Positions 6,373 through 32,445 of a DNA stretch of 64,000 bases are shown one piece after another. The notes beneath the pieces are model-generated. The model did no database searches. It was not told the DNA's origin and worked only from the letters and a program-made list of their open reading frames with translations. Made by a program: the position numbers and the translations under genes. The first letter of the stretch is position 1. Each line of letters starts with the position of its first letter. Source of the DNA: Cryobacterium sp. PH29-G1 (GTDB taxonomy: Bacteria > Actinomycetota > Actinomycetes > Actinomycetales > Microbacteriaceae); the NCBI RefSeq assembly GCF_030063365.1, contig NZ_JASISY010000004.1:124001-188000 (forward strand), in the 5' to 3' direction.

Positions 6373-7776
6373 ATGGCATCGACGCCATCAACCCGCAGCA
6401 AAGTCACTAAGAAGTCCAAACCCAAAAAGAAACTCGACTCGTCGCACTACCTCTACATGGCCGTCATTATCGCGGTCATCCTGGGTATTGTGGTCGGTCT
6501 GGTCTGGGGCGGGCCGGAAGGCTTCGCGGTTTCCCTCAAGCCGCTCGGTGACCTGTTCATCGCCCTGATCAAGATGATGATCGCCCCGATCATCTTCTGC
6601 ACGATCATTCTCGGCATCGGATCGATTGCCAAGGCAGCAACGGTCGGCAAGATCGGCGGCCTGGCCCTCGGCTACTTTCTGATCATGTCTACCTTCGCGC
6701 TGGGCATCGGCCTGGTCGTGGGAAACCTGATTCACCCGGGTGAGGGCATCAACCTCACGGATGCCACGTTCAAGGCCACCGAATCCGCCGACACCCAGTC
6801 ATTCCTGCTCGGGATCGTACCCTCCACACTGTTCTCGTCGCTGACCAGCGGCAACATCCTGCAGACGCTTCTCGTGGCGCTCATTGCCGGATTCGCCCTG
6901 CAGAAGATGGGCGCGGCAGGAAAGCCGATTCTTGAGGGCATCGCCCACGTGCAGGCCCTGGTCTTCCGCATTCTGATCATGGTCATGTGGCTGGCCCCGA
7001 TCGGTGCCTTCGGTGCGATCGCGGCGGTCGTCGGTGCCACCGGCATCCAAGCCGTGATCAGCCTCTTCACCCTCATGGCGGCTTTCTACATCACCTGCAT
7101 CATCTTCATCGTGGTCATTCTCGGTGGACTACTCAAGCTCGTCACCGGCGTGAACATCTTCAAGCTGATGCGCTACCTCGGCCGTGAATACCTGCTGATC
7201 TTCTCCACCTCGTCGTCGGAAGCGGCGCTGCCGCGACTGATCGCCAAAATGGAACACCTCGGCGTGTCCAAGCCCGTCGTCGGCGTGACCGTGCCCACCG
7301 GATACTCGTTCAACCTCGACGGCACCGCGATTTATCTCACCATGGCCTCGCTGTTCATCGCCAACGCGCTCGGCCAGCCGCTCGCCCTCGGCGAGCAGAT
7401 TGGCCTGCTCGTCTTCATGATCATCGCGAGCAAGGGTGCCGCCGGAGTCTCCGGCGCCGGCCTCGCCACACTGGCTGCCGGCCTGCAGGCCCACGCCCCG
7501 CAGCTCGTCGGCGGCGTCGGCTTCATCGTGGGCATCGACCGCTTCATGTCCGAGGCACGTGCCCTGACCAACTTCACCGGCAACGCCGTGGCGACGGTCA
7601 TGATCGGTTCGTGGACGAAAGAGCTCGACCGGGTGCAGGTTGACCGCGTGCTCGACAAGCTCGAACCGTTCGACGAGCACACCATGCTCTCGCACGGTCA
7701 CGTGAGCGTCGCCACCAGCCAGCGCACCGCTGAGAAGGCCGCACAGGTTGAGGTGTTGGAACGCGCATCGGTATAA
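6373..7776 (+). CDS. dctA: C4-dicarboxylate/cation symporter (DAACS family)
   Basis: The 467-aa integral membrane transporter takes up succinate, fumarate or malate with a cation. Family signatures are all present: the re-entrant loop serine region FSTSSSEAALPRLIAKME, VPTGYSFNLDGTAIYLTMASLF, and the substrate-binding SEARALTNFTGNAVATVMI. A lysine-rich N-terminal tail (SKVTKKSKPKKK) precedes the first helix. AGGAG at 6363-6367 supports the ATG. It is divergent from the CitA/CitB-like kinase and regulator, the classic arrangement for dicarboxylate-induced transport, and is followed by a terminator. Substrate choice among dicarboxylates is not decidable here. Confidence 0.92.
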   Translation: MASTPSTRSKVTKKSKPKKKLDSSHYLYMAVIIAVILGIVVGLVWGGPEGFAVSLKPLGDLFIALIKMMIAPIIFCTIILGIGSIAKAATVGKIGGLALGYFLIMSTFALGIGLVVGNLIHPGEGINLTDATFKATESADTQSFLLGIVPSTLFSSLTSGNILQTLLVALIAGFALQKMGAAGKPILEGIAHVQALVFRILIMVMWLAPIGAFGAIAAVVGATGIQAVISLFTLMAAFYITCIIFIVVILGGLLKLVTGVNIFKLMRYLGREYLLIFSTSSSEAALPRLIAKMEHLGVSKPVVGVTVPTGYSFNLDGTAIYLTMASLFIANALGQPLALGEQIGLLVFMIIASKGAAGVSGAGLATLAAGLQAHAPQLVGGVGFIVGIDRFMSEARALTNFTGNAVATVMIGSWTKELDRVQVDRVLDKLEPFDEHTMLSHGHVSVATSQRTAEKAAQVEVLERASV

Positions 7777-25662: not shown

Positions 25663-26733
<1,071 letters not shown>

Positions 26734-26785: not shown

Positions 26786-26847
26786 GCTGTCGATGACGCC
26801 CTGTGTTGATAACACCGCAGTAACGCCACCGGGTGTGCACTCTTCCC

Positions 26848-27765
26848 ATGAGGGCAGCGGGCCGAATTATCGTGCTGGCGGCAGCCTGCGCTGCCCTGCT
26901 CCCCGCGTGTGCCGGTCCTGGCCAGAGCGACGCCCGCATCGATGCCGGGAGCGGTTCTGGCGTGACCGCTGCTCCGGACAACGGCGACACCGCCGCTGAC
27001 CTCGTAACCGCTGACCCCGGTCGCGCCGACCCGGGCATCGCCGACCCGGGCACCGCAGGCCCCCGACCGCCCGGTCCGGCGGCACCCGACGACCCTGGTG
27101 CCGAGGGGACCACCGTTTTGTGGCTTCCCATCGGACCGGTGAGCCCGAGCGATCCGCCCCCGAACTTCTGGTACTCCCTGCTGCAGAACCGGGACTGCGA
27201 GTTGCTCGCCGCCAACGATACGAGCGCTGACCCGCTCTGGAGCGCGGCCAGCGCACTGTGCACGGCGGTCGTGACCGACAATGCGCAGGACTGGACCCGC
27301 GGGACCACGCAGCTCACCGCCGTACCGGCCCCGGCCGCCACCGACTGTCTGGGGCGAGCCGTGTACACGACGCTCACCGCCATCGCCGAAGCCCACCGCC
27401 GCAATCCGGCAGAACGCCTGGACCCGGTCGCGCCCGGCGCCGGCACGGCCTGCCCACTCGGCCTCGACGGGGTGTCCAGCAGCGGGATCAACAGCCCCGA
27501 TCCAGACCCGCACACCTCGGTCTGCGGCGGTGCGGAACTGCTGTTGGCCGGCCGATTCCTGGTCGTTGACCGCGTCGAGGTCGGCGGCAGGAGCGTCGAT
27601 GTGCGGCGGGCCGGCGAAAACAGTTTCTTCTTCATCACCCCGGCGTCCAGCTCCGGTGTGCAGGAGATCACCGCCTGGGGCCCGGACGGTCGGCTGCCGG
27701 GCACGGCCACGATCACGGTCGACGGCGACCCGGCGACCTGCTCCGCGACCGGATCAGGGCAGTGA
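26848..27765 (+). CDS. Probable secreted lipoprotein of unknown function
   Basis: The 305-aa protein starts MRAAGRIIVLAAACAALLPA and has a lipobox LPAC near residue 21, so it should be exported and lipid-anchored. A Pro/Asp-rich spacer follows with short repeats (ADPGRADPGIADPGTAGP). The globular part has six or more Cys residues (NRDCELLAA, SALCTAVV, ATDCLGRAV, ACPLGL, SVCGGAEL, ATCSATG), suggesting disulphides. The C-terminus (VEVGGRSVDVRRAGENSFFF, EITAWGPDGRLPGTATITVDG) looks beta-rich. Family not recognised. It overlaps the next gene by 4 bp. Confidence 0.7.
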   Translation: MRAAGRIIVLAAACAALLPACAGPGQSDARIDAGSGSGVTAAPDNGDTAADLVTADPGRADPGIADPGTAGPRPPGPAAPDDPGAEGTTVLWLPIGPVSPSDPPPNFWYSLLQNRDCELLAANDTSADPLWSAASALCTAVVTDNAQDWTRGTTQLTAVPAPAATDCLGRAVYTTLTAIAEAHRRNPAERLDPVAPGAGTACPLGLDGVSSSGINSPDPDPHTSVCGGAELLLAGRFLVVDRVEVGGRSVDVRRAGENSFFFITPASSSGVQEITAWGPDGRLPGTATITVDGDPATCSATGSGQ

Positions 27766-28703
27766 GACGCCCTCATCGCCGACGCGCGCGTGCTGCCGAC
27801 GCGCGTGCTGCCGACGCGCGCGACCCCGACGAGCCCGATCAGGCGGTAGCCGGGGAGGCCACGCCGTGGGTGAAAGCGGTCACGGTCATCTCCGCCATCG
27901 GACCCCCCGTGACGGTCGTCACCGCCCTCCTGCTCTACTTCGGCTGGGCGCGCACCGACAGCCAGGCACGGGCGATGGGGCTCGACGTGAGCCTGTTCGG
28001 CTACAGCCCGCAGGACTACATCCTGCGCAGCATCAATTCCCTGTTCCTGCCGCTCATCGTTCTGCTCGGGCTGGGCGTCGCGGTCACCGGCATCCGGCGA
28101 GCCCTGGGCCGACGCGCGGATGGCGAGCGCGGTCGAGAAACGGTGCGCCGGGGCGCGGGCGTCGTGGCCGTGGCCGCCGCCGTGGTCGCGGTCGGGCTAC
28201 TCATCCTCGTGCTGACCCGCCCGCTAGACAGCCACGTGTACGTTCCCTATGCCCTGGCCGCCCTGGTCTGGCTCGTCGCGGATGCCACCCGCCTTCGCCG
28301 GCGGGCCGCTGCCCGCGCCGCCCTCACCCGGGAACAGCGCGCCGTGGAGACCACGCTGGTTCTGTGCATCGTCACGTTGCTGCTGTTCTGGGGCACCGCC
28401 GATTTCGCGCAGACCGTCGGGCGCTCGCTCGCGGCCCGGTACGAGCAGTCCGTCGGTACGCTGCCGCGCGCCGAACTCGTCAGCCCGCACCGCCTGGCCA
28501 TCAATTCCCCCGGCGTCACCGAGCGGTCCGTGGGCACAGCGGATGCCCCGCTCTACCGCTATTCCGGGCTGCGGCTGCTGGTGCTCAGCAACGGCCGGTT
28601 CTTCTTTCTGCACGACGGGTGGACCCTGGCGCGCGGCCGGATCGTGATCGTGCCGGATGACGGCGCCGTGCACTTCGAATTCGGAAACGGACCGGCGCCG
28701 TAG
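27762..28703 (+). CDS. Polytopic membrane protein of unknown function
   Basis: The 313-aa protein starts at GTG in a 4-bp overlap with the lipoprotein gene. The N-terminus is basic and repetitive (RARAADARAADARD, from a 15-bp DNA repeat), then five hydrophobic helices (near VISAIGPPVTVVTALLLYFG, LFLPLIVLLGLGVAVTG, VVAVAAAVVAVGLLILVL, YALAALVWLVA, TLVLCIVTLLLFWGTADF). The C-terminal 110 residues are soluble-looking (LLVLSNGRFFFLHDGWTLA). Family not recognised. Coupling to the lipoprotein suggests a joint function at the cell surface. Confidence 0.7.
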   Translation: MRRPHRRRARAADARAADARDPDEPDQAVAGEATPWVKAVTVISAIGPPVTVVTALLLYFGWARTDSQARAMGLDVSLFGYSPQDYILRSINSLFLPLIVLLGLGVAVTGIRRALGRRADGERGRETVRRGAGVVAVAAAVVAVGLLILVLTRPLDSHVYVPYALAALVWLVADATRLRRRAAARAALTREQRAVETTLVLCIVTLLLFWGTADFAQTVGRSLAARYEQSVGTLPRAELVSPHRLAINSPGVTERSVGTADAPLYRYSGLRLLVLSNGRFFFLHDGWTLARGRIVIVPDDGAVHFEFGNGPAP

Positions 28704-28730
28704 TCCGGCCCGGTGTGGAAGGCTGGGCGG

Positions 28731-29384
28731 ATGGCATCAGGGAACAGAGTCCGGCGCGCCTGCGCGACAGCCGCCATGGTCGGGGTGGTGTTGTACGTGC
28801 TCATCGACGTGGTGTTGCAGTTTCTGCCGCCGCATTACAGCCCGATCAGCGACGCCGAGAGCAACCTCGCCGTCGGTCCGTATGGCTGGATCATGAACAT
28901 CAACTTTTTGGGCCGCGCGGCATTCTGCGTCGCCGTCGTCATCGCGATTCTCCTCACCGCGCGGGTGCTGGTGCCCGAGCGTCGGGATCCGATGCTCGGC
29001 CTGGGGCTCGTGCTGTTGCTCGTGGGGGGAGCCAGCTCGGCTGTGCTCGCCTTTTTTCCCACCGATGTCAGTACCTCCCACGAAAGCACGTTGCAGACGT
29101 CAACCCAGGTCGGCGCTGTGCATCTCGCCGTCGCGTCCTTCGGCTTCGTCACGGCTCTCGTCGCGATCGTGCTGCTGACACTCTGGCTGCGTGTGAACCG
29201 GGTCTTGCCGCACGTACTGCCGTGGGCGACCGCGTTCGCCGCACTCACCCTCACCGGCCTGCTTCTCGTCGTCGCGGCGAGCCAATGGCTGCCCGGGGTC
29301 GTCGGTCTCGCTGAACGCATTGCGCTGGTCGGAATTCTGGGCTGGACCTTTTCGGTGAGCGCCGGCACGGTAACGCCTCGGTAA
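28731..29384 (+). CDS. DUF998-family membrane protein
   Basis: The 217-aa protein starts at ATG 28731 (GGAAGG 7 nt upstream). It has about six TM segments and the DUF998 pattern: an N-terminal ATAAMVGVVLYVLIDVVLQF, YSPISDAESNLAVGPYGWIM, GASSAVLAFFPTDVSTSHES and a C-terminal ERIALVGILGWTF. Function of the family is unknown. It follows the previous gene by 27 nt and precedes the subtilase gene by 52 nt. Confidence 0.75.
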   Translation: MASGNRVRRACATAAMVGVVLYVLIDVVLQFLPPHYSPISDAESNLAVGPYGWIMNINFLGRAAFCVAVVIAILLTARVLVPERRDPMLGLGLVLLLVGGASSAVLAFFPTDVSTSHESTLQTSTQVGAVHLAVASFGFVTALVAIVLLTLWLRVNRVLPHVLPWATAFAALTLTGLLLVVAASQWLPGVVGLAERIALVGILGWTFSVSAGTVTPR

Positions 29385-29436
29385 CGCGGCGCGTGGCATT
29401 CTCGCCTCAAGAATTTTTTTCTGAGAGGAGAAGCGC

Positions 29437-30675
29437 ATGCTGGAACCTGAAGATTTCGCGAGCGGAGGCGGTGAGCGACAGGGGAACGGCCCCGAGACGA
29501 CGGGTCGTTTCATCGTGGTCTTCGACGACGACGTCACCGATCCCGGAGAGGTTCTGCGCACGGCGGCGGGACTATCGGACGTTGCGAATTCGCGTGATTT
29601 CGCCGACCAGGCGGTGGACCCGTCGAAGACCGGCATCGCCGACGCCACCGTCTTCGCCACGCTCGGCATCGCCGTGGTCGAGGCCGACCCGAACCAATTC
29701 GCGGCCCTGCGGGACGCAGCAGGAACCGGCGACCGCCGGATCCAATCCGTGTCCCCGGAACTGGTGCACCATGCCCTGCTCGACACGGCCGCGCGCACCA
29801 CGGTTGCGGCACCGAGAATCTTTCAGGATTCCACGGACTTCACCTGGGGGTTGCAGGCGACACAGGTCCCCACCTCCGGCTTCACCGGGCTCGGCATCAA
29901 GCTCGCGGTGCTCGACACGGGTTTCGATGCCGCACACCCCGACTTCTCGGGACGCGGTGTCACCATGCAGTCGTTCATTGCCGGGGAGACCGCTCAGGAC
30001 GGTCACGGGCACGGAACGCACTGCATCGGCACCTCCTCCGGCCCGAAGTCTCCTGCTGCCGGACCCCGGTATGGGATCGCGTTCGAAGCGGACATTCTGG
30101 CCGGTAAAGTGCTCAGCAACCTCGGATCAGGAACCGACGGCGGCATCATCGCCGGGATAAATTGGGCCGTCGCAAACGGATGTGCCATCATCTCGATGTC
30201 GCTGGGAGCCGACGTACCCCAAGTGCACCCGCCGTACGTCGCGGCCGGCCGCCGAGCACTCGACCTGGGGTCCCTCATCATCGCCGCGGCGGGCAACAAC
30301 GCTGATCGCATGAATTTCGACTACGGCTTCGTCGGCCCGCCGGCCAACAGCCCTTACATCTCGGCCGTCGCGGCACTCAACCAGCAGCTGGACATGGCAT
30401 TTTTCTCGGCGCGAAGCCTGCCGGTGAACGGCGGTCAAGTGGATGTCGCGGGGCCCGGCTGGCAGGTCTACTCCTCCTGGATTCTCCCCACGGCCTACCG
30501 CATCATTAGCGGGACCAGCATGGCAACGCCGCACGTGGCCGGACTCGCCGTCTTGTGGGCGCAAGCGACGGGGTACCGTGGTCGGGAATTGTGGGCCACG
30601 ATGGCGCAGGACGGTCGACGGTTGCGGGAGCCATCGTTCGACGTCGGAACCGGCCTGTTGCAGGCACCACAGTGA
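29437..30675 (+). CDS. S8-family serine peptidase (subtilase) without obvious signal peptide
   Basis: The 412-aa protease has the full subtilisin triad: Asp in LAVLDTGFDAAHPDF, His in GHGHGTHCIGTSSG and Ser in ISGTSMATPHVAGLAVLW, with the oxyanion Asn in AAAGNNADRM. The first about 125 residues (FIVVFDDDVTDPGEVL..., VEADPNQFAAL) resemble a propeptide-like region, but no signal peptide precedes it, so it may act inside the cell or leave by another route. GAGAGGAG supports ATG 29437. A small protein resembling an I9 inhibitor/propeptide is encoded 22 nt downstream. Confidence 0.9.
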   Translation: MLEPEDFASGGGERQGNGPETTGRFIVVFDDDVTDPGEVLRTAAGLSDVANSRDFADQAVDPSKTGIADATVFATLGIAVVEADPNQFAALRDAAGTGDRRIQSVSPELVHHALLDTAARTTVAAPRIFQDSTDFTWGLQATQVPTSGFTGLGIKLAVLDTGFDAAHPDFSGRGVTMQSFIAGETAQDGHGHGTHCIGTSSGPKSPAAGPRYGIAFEADILAGKVLSNLGSGTDGGIIAGINWAVANGCAIISMSLGADVPQVHPPYVAAGRRALDLGSLIIAAAGNNADRMNFDYGFVGPPANSPYISAVAALNQQLDMAFFSARSLPVNGGQVDVAGPGWQVYSSWILPTAYRIISGTSMATPHVAGLAVLWAQATGYRGRELWATMAQDGRRLREPSFDVGTGLLQAPQ

Positions 30676-30697
30676 TCCTGGAAGCCGGAGGTGACCG

Positions 30698-30931
30698 GTG
30701 ATTTCCGTCAGCATCGTCGTCGACGACTCCCACACGGCCGGGATCGTTGACGTCGCCGCGCGGCTGCGTGCGGCCGGAATGTCGGTCGAGAACGTGCTCG
30801 ACACGGTCGGAATCATCACCGGATCAGTCTCGGAGCAGCAGCTGGGCGCACTGGGCCGTGTGGAGGGCGTGGAATCCGTCGATCGCGACCGGCAGGTGCA
30901 CCTGCCGCCGCCGGAGGACGACGTGCAGTAG
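30698..30931 (+). CDS. Small I9-like protein, possible partner of the subtilase
   Basis: The 77-aa protein has a GTG start and good ribosome site (GGAGGTG). The pattern SIVVDDSHTAGIVDVAARL, GMSVENVLDTVGIITGSVS, QLGALGRVEGVESVDRDRQV is the beta-alpha-beta layout of peptidase inhibitor I9/subtilisin propeptides, where the strand V-E-G-V-E-S-V-D-R-D precedes the cleavage site. Similar short proteins are often labelled ketohydroxyglutarate aldolase, which nothing here supports. Its place directly after a subtilase suggests an intermolecular inhibitor or folding chaperone; this is inference. Confidence 0.7.
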   Translation: MISVSIVVDDSHTAGIVDVAARLRAAGMSVENVLDTVGIITGSVSEQQLGALGRVEGVESVDRDRQVHLPPPEDDVQ

Positions 30932-31146
30932 CGGTCGGAAGAAAGAGTGGACATCGACTGCCCGGCCGTGCCGGGAAGCGGACGGTAGCTATCTCGACGA
31001 GAGCGGCCGCCGTTCTCGGGCTGTTCGTGCCGGTTCGGCTCAACGGCACGTCCGCATCGTTGCTCACCAACCCCGATCGGGGGCCTTAGGGTGGGGAAGG
31101 TGCCCCGGGATCCGGCGCACCTCACGACGACGTCAGGACCCTGTAC

Positions 31147-32445
31147 ATGAGCTCCCAAGGAAACTCCGGCGACGGTCTCGCCGTCGCTGATCCGGCTGTT
31201 GCAGACGGCCCCCTGCCCAAGTGGAAGATCGTCGGCCCCGGACTCGTCGTCGCCGCGACCGGAGTCGGGGCCGCCGACATGGTCGCCACCCTCGTGGCCG
31301 GCTCGCGCTACGGTTATGCCCTGCTGTGGGCGGTCATCCTCGGCGTGATCCTCAAGATCGTGCTGGTCGAGGGCGCCGGCCGGTTCACGCTCGCCACCGG
31401 CAAGACCATTTTTGAGGGCTGGCGCACCCTCGGTAAGTGGACCACCTGGTACTTCGGCCCGTACATCATGCTGTGGGGCTTCGTCTACGGTGCTACGGCG
31501 ATGTCGTCGGCCGCACTGCCGCTGGCGGCGCTGTTCCCGGTCTTTCCGCTGCCGGTCTGGGCCGTCGCGATGGGCCTCGCCGGACTGGCCATGGTCTGGT
31601 TCGGGCGCTATGCCATCTTCGAGAAGGTCACCGCTGCCCTCGTGGGCATCATGTTCATCACCGTCGTCGGCCTGGCCGTCATCGCCGTACCCGACTTTCC
31701 GGCCATGCTGCGCGGTCTCGTGCCGATGATTCCCGAAGGCGGCGTGCTCTACACACTCGCCCTCGCCGGCGGCGTCGGCGGTACCATCACCCTGGCTGCC
31801 TACGGCTACTGGCTGCGCGAAAAGGGCTGGTCCACTCCGCGCTGGATGAAAGTCATGCGCATCGACAACCGCATGGCCTACGTCATGACCGGAATCTTCG
31901 TCGTCGCCATGCTTATCGTGGGCGCCGAAGTCGTCGCAGCCGCCGGCATCACGCTGAGCGCCGGCGACAAGGGCCTCGTCGACCTGTCGACGGTGCTCAA
32001 TGAAAAGTACGGCGTCGTCGTCGGTACCGGGTTTCTGGTGGGCTTCTGGGCGGCATCCTTCTCGTCGATCATCGGCGTGTGGAACGGCGTGAGCCTCATG
32101 TTCGCCGATTTCTGGGGCAACATGCGCGGCAAGAAGTCCGGCCACCCTGACACGCTGGTCGGTGGTAAATACTTCAAGTTCTACCTGTTGTGGCTCACCT
32201 TTCCGCCGATGATTTTGTTTCTGCTCGGTTCGCCGATCGGGCTCATCCTCGCCTATGGCGTGCTCGGCTCGCTGTTCATGCCCTTTCTCGCCATCACCCT
32301 GCTCGGCCTGCTCAACAGCAAACGTGTGCCGAAGGAATGGCGCAACAAGTGGTTCACCAACATTGCCCTCGGTATCTGCGCGTTGCTCTTCATCGTGCTG
32401 GGCGTGCAGCAGCTGATCACGGCGCTCACGCCCGTGTTCGGTTAG
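31147..32445 (+). CDS. Nramp-related transporter with altered metal-site motifs
   Basis: The 432-aa protein has about 11 hydrophobic helices and the overall Nramp pattern (start KWKIVGPGLVVAATGVGAADM; GYALLWAVILGVILKIVLVEGAGRFTLATG; inner helices FVYGATAMSSAALPLAALFP). In characterised Mn/Fe transporters TM1 has D-P-G-N and TM6 has M-P-H; here the equivalents are T-G-V-G-A-A-D-M and GGVGGTITLAAYGYW, so canonical metal ligands are missing. It probably moves another ion or solute. The 215-nt gap before it (30932-31146) shows no gene. Confidence 0.75.
   Translation: MSSQGNSGDGLAVADPAVADGPLPKWKIVGPGLVVAATGVGAADMVATLVAGSRYGYALLWAVILGVILKIVLVEGAGRFTLATGKTIFEGWRTLGKWTTWYFGPYIMLWGFVYGATAMSSAALPLAALFPVFPLPVWAVAMGLAGLAMVWFGRYAIFEKVTAALVGIMFITVVGLAVIAVPDFPAMLRGLVPMIPEGGVLYTLALAGGVGGTITLAAYGYWLREKGWSTPRWMKVMRIDNRMAYVMTGIFVVAMLIVGAEVVAAAGITLSAGDKGLVDLSTVLNEKYGVVVGTGFLVGFWAASFSSIIGVWNGVSLMFADFWGNMRGKKSGHPDTLVGGKYFKFYLLWLTFPPMILFLLGSPIGLILAYGVLGSLFMPFLAITLLGLLNSKRVPKEWRNKWFTNIALGICALLFIVLGVQQLITALTPVFG

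Follow-up and report, generated by a model that had tools for sequence, protein, structure and literature searches.

In Cryobacterium sp. PH29-G1, an S8 subtilase without a visible signal peptide is followed on the same strand by a separate gene for a small protein with a predicted subtilisin-propeptide (I9-like) fold, and this gene pair recurs in several bacterial phyla. We interpret the pair as probably a two-gene cytosolic protease/inhibitor module, in which the small protein would be a dedicated inhibitor whose C-terminal tail lies uncleaved in the active site of the protease. The features of the pair and its surroundings within the window (the whole stretch of 64,000 nucleotides that was analysed) are collected in the table.

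Table. Features of the protease/partner pair and neighbouring genes, in window coordinates.
Feature	Position	Strand	Remarks
ilvC	25705-26733	+	
Three poorly characterised genes upstream of the protease	26833-27765, 27762-28703, 28713-29384	+	third is a DUF998 membrane protein
Putative ribosome-binding site of the protease, GAGAGGAG	29423-29430	+	6 nt before ATG; from sequence
S8 subtilase, 412 aa, pro-enzyme with its own predicted cis prodomain, no visible signal peptide	29437-30675	+	ATG to TGA
Predicted I9-like N-terminal prodomain of the protease, residues about 22-116	29500-29784	+	alignment of relatives; AlphaFold2 model
Catalytic domain, residues 132-412	29830-30672	+	mature subtilisins align from about residue 132
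Catalytic Asp160	29914-29916	+	invariant in 22/22
Catalytic His192	30010-30012	+	invariant in 22/22
Oxyanion-hole Asn287	30295-30297	+	invariant in 22/22
Catalytic Ser361	30517-30519	+	invariant in 22/22
Putative ribosome-binding site of the small gene, GGAGGTGA	30687-30694	+	own GGAGG; from sequence
Stand-alone predicted I9-like (propeptide-like) protein, 77 aa	30698-30931	+	GTG start, TAG stop
C-terminal tail of the small protein, residues 69-77 (LPPPEDDVQ)	30902-30928	+	structural alignment; register uncertain by one or two residues
Nramp transporter gene, downstream of the pair	31147-32445	+	

Evaluating the protease revealed the sequence features expected of a member of the S8 family. Pfam PF00082 (Peptidase_S8) covers residues 153-385 (E 7.7e-35; 121 bits against a cut-off of 21.8), and the predicted Asp/His/Ser triad together with the oxyanion-hole Asn is unchanged in all 22 aligned proteases, the Cryobacterium one counted among them. 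The first-pass annotation had described a full triad in a protease without a signal peptide, and both observations hold, the second as judged solely by hydropathy: a strongly hydrophobic N-terminal stretch is absent from all 22 proteases (maximum 19-residue Kyte-Doolittle mean of 1.12 within the first 60 residues). A type VII secretion mycosin was also considered and set aside, with TIGR03921 giving 97.4 bits against a cut-off of 278.75 and the protease N-terminus, by the same hydropathy measure, not being hydrophobic as a mycosin signal peptide would be.

Ahead of the catalytic domain, about 95 N-terminal residues (residues 22-116) are common to the aligned relatives. Structural alignment of the AlphaFold2 model of the entire protease (pLDDT 86.7, pTM 0.90) placed residues 23-412 on unprocessed pro-subtilisin E (Z 41.6, rmsd 3.1, 337 aligned), with ProN-Tk-SP and pro-Tk-subtilisin next in the ranking; Foldseek returned the same top two entries, and the alignment of mature subtilisins to the model starts only at about residue 132. 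The match to pro-subtilisin E points to two predicted prodomains per system, one in cis on the protease and a second in trans as the small protein. This contradicts the first-pass proposal that the propeptide had moved out of the protease and that the partner stands in for it: since the protease has a predicted prodomain of its own, the partner would be no substitute for a missing one and, for the same reason, the sequence does not explain the need for a second. Comparison of the partner alignment with the cis-prodomain alignment by hhalign gave a probability of 29 % (E 5.8e-4), which is too weak to derive the partner from the prodomain of this protease.

The small gene begins after a gap of 22 nt from the protease stop, and its position, length and own GGAGG agree with the first-pass description. 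The two genes would presumably be co-transcribed; a sigma-70 scan of 29300-31200 gave no site, which is of little weight here. A subtilisin-propeptide (I9) fold is predicted for the small protein from its model (pLDDT 84.1; secondary structure E2-8 H16-25 E29-34 E39-44 H46-52 E58-63). The six best Foldseek rows in the PDB were propeptides from subtilisin complexes, four of them titled Tk, with nothing at E <= 0.001 (best 1.5e-3), and the top VIA row was prosubtilisin 3cnq_P (Z 9.9, rmsd 2.8, 71 aligned). Subtilase prodomains or POIA1 (structure 1v5i, Z 7.8) made up 23 of the 24 best VIA rows, the remaining row being NapD, which tied at Z 9.2 but with an rmsd of 6.7 and which is not known to be related to subtilase propeptides. 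Foldseek and VIA thus both liken the small protein to I9, as its sequence pattern had initially suggested.

Sequence comparisons of the small protein were fainter. As a single sequence it had no Pfam match at E <= 1 and only chance-level matches in NCBIfam and among PDB sequences; Pfam PF05922 (Inhibitor_I9) gave a weak match in 3/22 members of its family (best E 0.035), and because its score falls short of the gathering score the small protein is not filed under PF05922. The family profile likewise found nothing significant among PDB sequences (best E 0.16), with 8 of the 30 listed matches being short chains named subtilase or subtilase propeptide, and identity between the Cryobacterium small protein and 21 others ranged from 18 to 61 %. 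When the profile was run on 296 genomes of the same phylum (at most 13-19 candidates per genome scored), it marked 14 places in 13 genomes, comprising the Cryobacterium copy, one further pair (genome G196) and 12 others, nine of which lay N-terminal to an S8 domain within one reading frame. The other three were two long frames lacking an S8 match and one histidine-kinase-like frame (by eye, taken as chance). These placements suggest, at the level of sequence, a relationship between the small protein and subtilase prodomains. The two long frames (L029 and L033, in genomes G218 and G314) carry a propeptide-like stretch and then a GVxVGVLSD motif, and are perhaps a divergent peptidase.

We assessed conservation of the pair in 39 loci, obtained from searches that recognise the subfamily of the Cryobacterium protease and drawn from Actinobacteria, Bacteroidota, a cyanobacterial MAG, Proteobacteria and Deinococcus (20 from a genome scan with protease peptides; Cryobacterium and genomes G003, G196 and G437; 12 plasmid-borne; three Bacteroidota genomes). 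The small gene lies downstream of the protease in 39/39, directly in 38 and past an intervening gene in one, so the pairing exceeds chance. Neither of the two outcomes that would have refuted the first-pass reading, a predicted structure unlike I9 and routine absence of the partner, was thus observed. The 20 scan loci include Blastococcus, Arthrobacter, Paeniglutamicibacter, Glutamicibacter, Nesterenkonia, Amycolatopsis, Granulicoccus and Chryseobacterium, as well as MAGs of a Brevibacterium, a Petrimonas, an Oscillatoria and a Bacteroidetes. Protease and partner are 4 to 225 nt apart in 18 of these and overlap in one, and in the last, from Glutamicibacter (L014), they are separated by an extra gene at 7120-7712 of that locus, which by eye we take to be RibD/dihydrofolate-reductase-like.

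Loci with other S8 proteases served as controls, and the profile recognised a partner in 0/78 of them (23 S8-bearing of 27 loci at E <= 0.1 and 55 more at E <= 0.05, counting frames outside the S8 frame), a figure to be read with the limited flanks, the likeness of several viral loci to one another and the chance that a very divergent partner escapes the profile. Nine whole genomes in which the pair was known to occur were searched with the profile, and in 9/9 its sole match was the copy beside the protease. Recovery by the profile was high, with 16 of 17 partners outside its alignment found at E <= 0.0034; the Vibrio partner (E 0.58) was assigned from place and pattern only. A second weak match in G003 (E 4.7e-4), within a 222-aa frame (L003), was taken as chance, and one row of alignment A2 (L007) begins at an arbitrary codon within its open frame. 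Across 22 loci, partner distances correlated with catalytic-domain distances (Mantel r 0.78, p 0.0001), a correlation that shared ancestry alone can produce.

The pair is a rare but widely scattered module. Among 60 genomes near that of Cryobacterium (own included), it was present in two, the same two that have a subfamily protease, other S8 matches there having other architectures. With at most 13-19 candidates per genome scored, the cis-prodomain profile matched in 3/396 genomes of the same phylum, own included, and in 5/296 of the Chryseobacterium phylum, counting the centre genome; no S8 match was present in one of these five (L082). Of 25 matched plasmid records, 16 were examined and nine left out (two Vibrio records whose search values equalled those of record H11, two from Streptomyces, and five outside the listing); the small gene accompanied all 12 subfamily proteases in these records and none of the four other S8 proteases.

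Several loci showed individual peculiarities. In genome G437, the gene upstream of the pair (L040, 176-1108) is by eye presumably a trypsin-like serine protease, and a gene downstream of the pair in Streptomyces (L042) carries the annotation 'serine protease'. On a Streptomyces avidinii plasmid (L045, one of the 39 loci), the protease reading frame is broken into two overlapping ones, the first annotated as a hypothetical protein and the other as an S8 peptidase, and the partner gene has an uninterrupted frame. In genome G709 the pair is followed in tandem by a further protease copy (L084, 4067-5527) whose catalytic Asp, Ser and oxyanion Asn are replaced (by eye) and whose I9-like prodomain is kept; the 2.5 kb downstream of this pseudoprotease held no I9-like frame recognised by the profile. 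As one case, a pseudoprotease lacking its own partner fits, in direction, a partner that would inhibit activity.

A further feature of the small protein is its C-terminal tail. In the structural alignment, its residue 70 corresponds to the final residue (77) of the BPN' prosegment (1spb_P) and to residue 69 of the Tk propeptide (3vv2), end residues that we take to be P1. Pro71 would therefore be P1', although other rows of the structural alignment move the register by one or two residues and the tail is low in model confidence (blocks of pLDDT 70 and 60). Across the family, 26/39 partners continue past the predicted P1, and 24 of these 26 have Pro at residue 71; Asp/Glu occurs at 73 in 23, Val/Ile at 76 in 23 and Gln at 77 in 21. 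Sixteen of the long tails agree throughout with the motif [LIV]-x-P-[PST]-[DE]-x-x-[VI]-Q and the other 10 deviate from it in at least one position; in two partners (L023 and L025) the chain extends beyond it. At residue 67 (P4), 36 partners have V, F, I, Y, M or W and three have a gap. Of the 13 short-ended partners, for which anchor residues were chosen by hand, 10 stop at the equivalent of residue 69-71 of the Cryobacterium protein and the others at 72, 73 and 78, while the Deinococcus and Vibrio partners end exactly at 70 with Ile, Leu or Met. Either kind of end, stopping at P1 or continuing across it by way of a proline, would suit a tail that lies in an active site. Cleavage before proline is not readily done by subtilisins, so a tail that runs past P1 with proline at P1' should resist cleavage.

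The neighbourhood of the pair offered little sign of a larger unit. The first-pass annotation had raised the possibility of a system including the three upstream genes, and this did not hold up: neither these genes nor the Nramp gene had a homologue at E <= 1e-3 around other pairs (many of these loci with about 1.5 kb of flank), and genomes of the same genus have them without the pair. In G010, G014 and G020 the DUF998 homologue lies about 170-270 nt before the Nramp gene and the pair is absent; in G013 about 0.9 kb separates the two, with no match to the pair; and in G017 the second upstream gene is directly before Nramp. In G003, a single contig carries ilvC, pieces of DUF998 and Nramp; DUF998 and Nramp are about 1.7 kb apart there, with no match to the pair, which sits on a different contig. 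From these arrangements, the pair resembles a unit whose insertion site varies. Three of the 12 plasmid records have a transposase gene downstream of the pair within the stretch examined, and plasmid pSEA2 of Vibrio alfacsensis (L048), typed with a MOBH relaxase, carries a divergent pair flanked by a DndB-annotated gene on one side and a DNA cytosine methyltransferase gene on the other. A scan of 135 script-chosen frames around 18 pairs, using PADLOC and Pfam at E <= 1e-10, found no widely shared neighbour family: PADLOC gave 35 families (mad2 in four frames, mad3 in two, the others listed in one each) and Pfam gave 144, each in at most three frames.

Defence and phage resources were also compared with the pair itself. 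The PADLOC 'subtilase' and IetS models matched the Cryobacterium protease (E 1e-20 and 1.6e-4), IetS matched the Vibrio and Chryseobacterium proteases at about 4e-11 and 5e-11, and PADLOC gave nothing for the small protein. A tblastn search of phages with the protease returned 34 records, all of which covered less than 80 % of the query; two small proteins searched in phages had only E 6 and E 3 matches; and no frame in 52 viral S8 loci was recognised by the small-protein profile at E <= 0.05. PHROG phrog_33046 (106 positions, unknown function) matched the small protein weakly (E 0.0028), possibly reflecting propeptide-like proteins in phages.

Bringing these observations together, we propose that the subtilase would be made as a zymogen whose N-terminal I9-like domain aids folding and blocks the enzyme, and that self-cleavage near the end of this cis domain would leave a protease active inside the cell. 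The free I9-like partner, made from the second gene, would then bind the same face of the mature enzyme with its C-terminal tail running through the active-site cleft. The tail of the common form would extend beyond P1 with its P1' proline and would not be cleaved; in the other form, the partner mostly ends at or next to P1 and would resemble a cleaved propeptide. The putative trigger for release would be a change in the inhibitor, the protease being freed once its inhibitor is outnumbered, degraded or lost.

The same inhibition at the molecular level could serve a different biological purpose, namely a toxin-antitoxin-like or abortive-infection module in which a labile inhibitor restrains a self-toxic protease, such that loss or destruction of the inhibitor (through plasmid loss, phage attack or stress) would lead to digestion of the cell. 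The patchy distribution of this linked gene pair (2/60 genomes), its different places in two genomes of one genus, the partly plasmid-borne occurrence with transposase genes nearby, the pSEA2 setting and the PADLOC matches all lean this way. However, the order is enzyme and then inhibitor, defence neighbours are not shared among the 135 frames scanned (no PADLOC family in more than four, no Pfam family in more than three), the PADLOC matches span the catalytic domain and could be given by any subtilase, and the phage searches found no copy of the subfamily, so that we hold this purpose to be rather doubtful. Somewhat bolder, and fairly unlikely in our estimation, is a widespread mobile module for proteolytic self-killing or stress switching, in which the cis lock would be spent on maturation, the trans proline-tail lock would last, and inhibitor loss would bring damage or dormancy.

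Other readings differ in what the small protein does. It could be a folding chaperone acting in trans, instead of or besides inhibiting, given that subtilisin prodomains are described as both chaperones and inhibitors (PMC6220982) and that the partner is always at hand; yet the protease has its own predicted prodomain at the pro-subtilisin position, and a P1' proline tail would be unnecessary for chaperoning, which makes this role unlikely. A vestigial duplicate or a protease substrate with no regulatory role would suit the divergent sequence (18-61 % identity) but agrees poorly with retention in 39/39 loci across phyla, even past an intervening gene (L014), and with the conserved proline tail; the correlated distances point the same way, though shared ancestry alone may suffice, and we consider such a role very improbable. 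A propeptide relocated out of the protease and provided in trans is suggested by a small I9-like gene adjoining a signal-less protease, and would be close to negligible as a reading given that residues 22-116 form a predicted cis I9-like prodomain, present in relatives too. A dedicated inhibitor within a cytosolic module, which would make the pair a protease/inhibitor switch as put forward in the first-pass annotation, is our preferred reading.

If so, a two-gene unit conserved in several bacterial phyla and combining a cis with a trans prodomain and bearing a tail from which the mode of inhibition can be predicted would be a simple system for testing cytosolic protease control. Genes of about 70-105 aa beside such S8 proteases, now annotated 'hypothetical protein', could be named, and the unit may also yield compact and specific inhibitors of subtilisins. 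Among the top-ranked matches in open full-text literature (subscription papers and preprints being outside this scope), no description of a bacterial pair of this kind was found. Already known are separate propeptide-like subtilase inhibitors and the bacterial intracellular-subtilisin inhibitor IPI, which has another fold and an unlinked gene.

Bacillus IPI/BsuPI is a reported inhibitor of Isp1 with an Ig-like fold, and, in completely sequenced genomes, the genes of its homologues are stated not to have a subtilisin gene nearby (PMC3901451). The likeness is that of a proposed dedicated inhibitor of an intracellular subtilisin (PMC3901451), whereas the partner here is predicted to be I9-like and lies downstream of its protease in 39/39. 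The small protein was accordingly not taken for IPI/BsuPI, its model having an alpha/beta propeptide fold and not an Ig-like one. The intracellular subtilisins (ISPs) of Bacillus resemble our protease in being signal-less subtilases that need cytosolic restraint, and in B. clausii ISP the proline of a LIPY/F motif shifts the scissile bond out of reach, so that a proline just after P1 avoids cleavage (PMC6220982). The ISP propeptide is typically 16-20 residues long (PMC6220982), in contrast to the predicted I9-like prodomain of about 95 residues here, and the proline tail here sits on a separate protein. The Cryobacterium protease was thus not classed as a Bacillus-type ISP; it has no signal peptide by hydropathy, and a short LIPY/F propeptide was not seen. 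Similar in design are the stand-alone propeptide-like subtilase inhibitors, namely POIA1, the yeast peptidase B inhibitor, Arabidopsis SPI-1, Toxoplasma MIC5 and Plasmodium SUB1-ProM, the last of which inhibits SUB1 (PMC6993865). As in this group, a small separate gene encodes a propeptide fold, predicted in our case, and as with SUB1-ProM the inhibitor gene adjoins that of its protease (PMC6993865). These named inhibitors are eukaryotic (PMC6993865), whereas the pair described here is bacterial, forms a two-gene unit without a visible signal peptide and, unlike that group, has as its common form a tail extending beyond the predicted P1 site and carrying proline at the P1' position.
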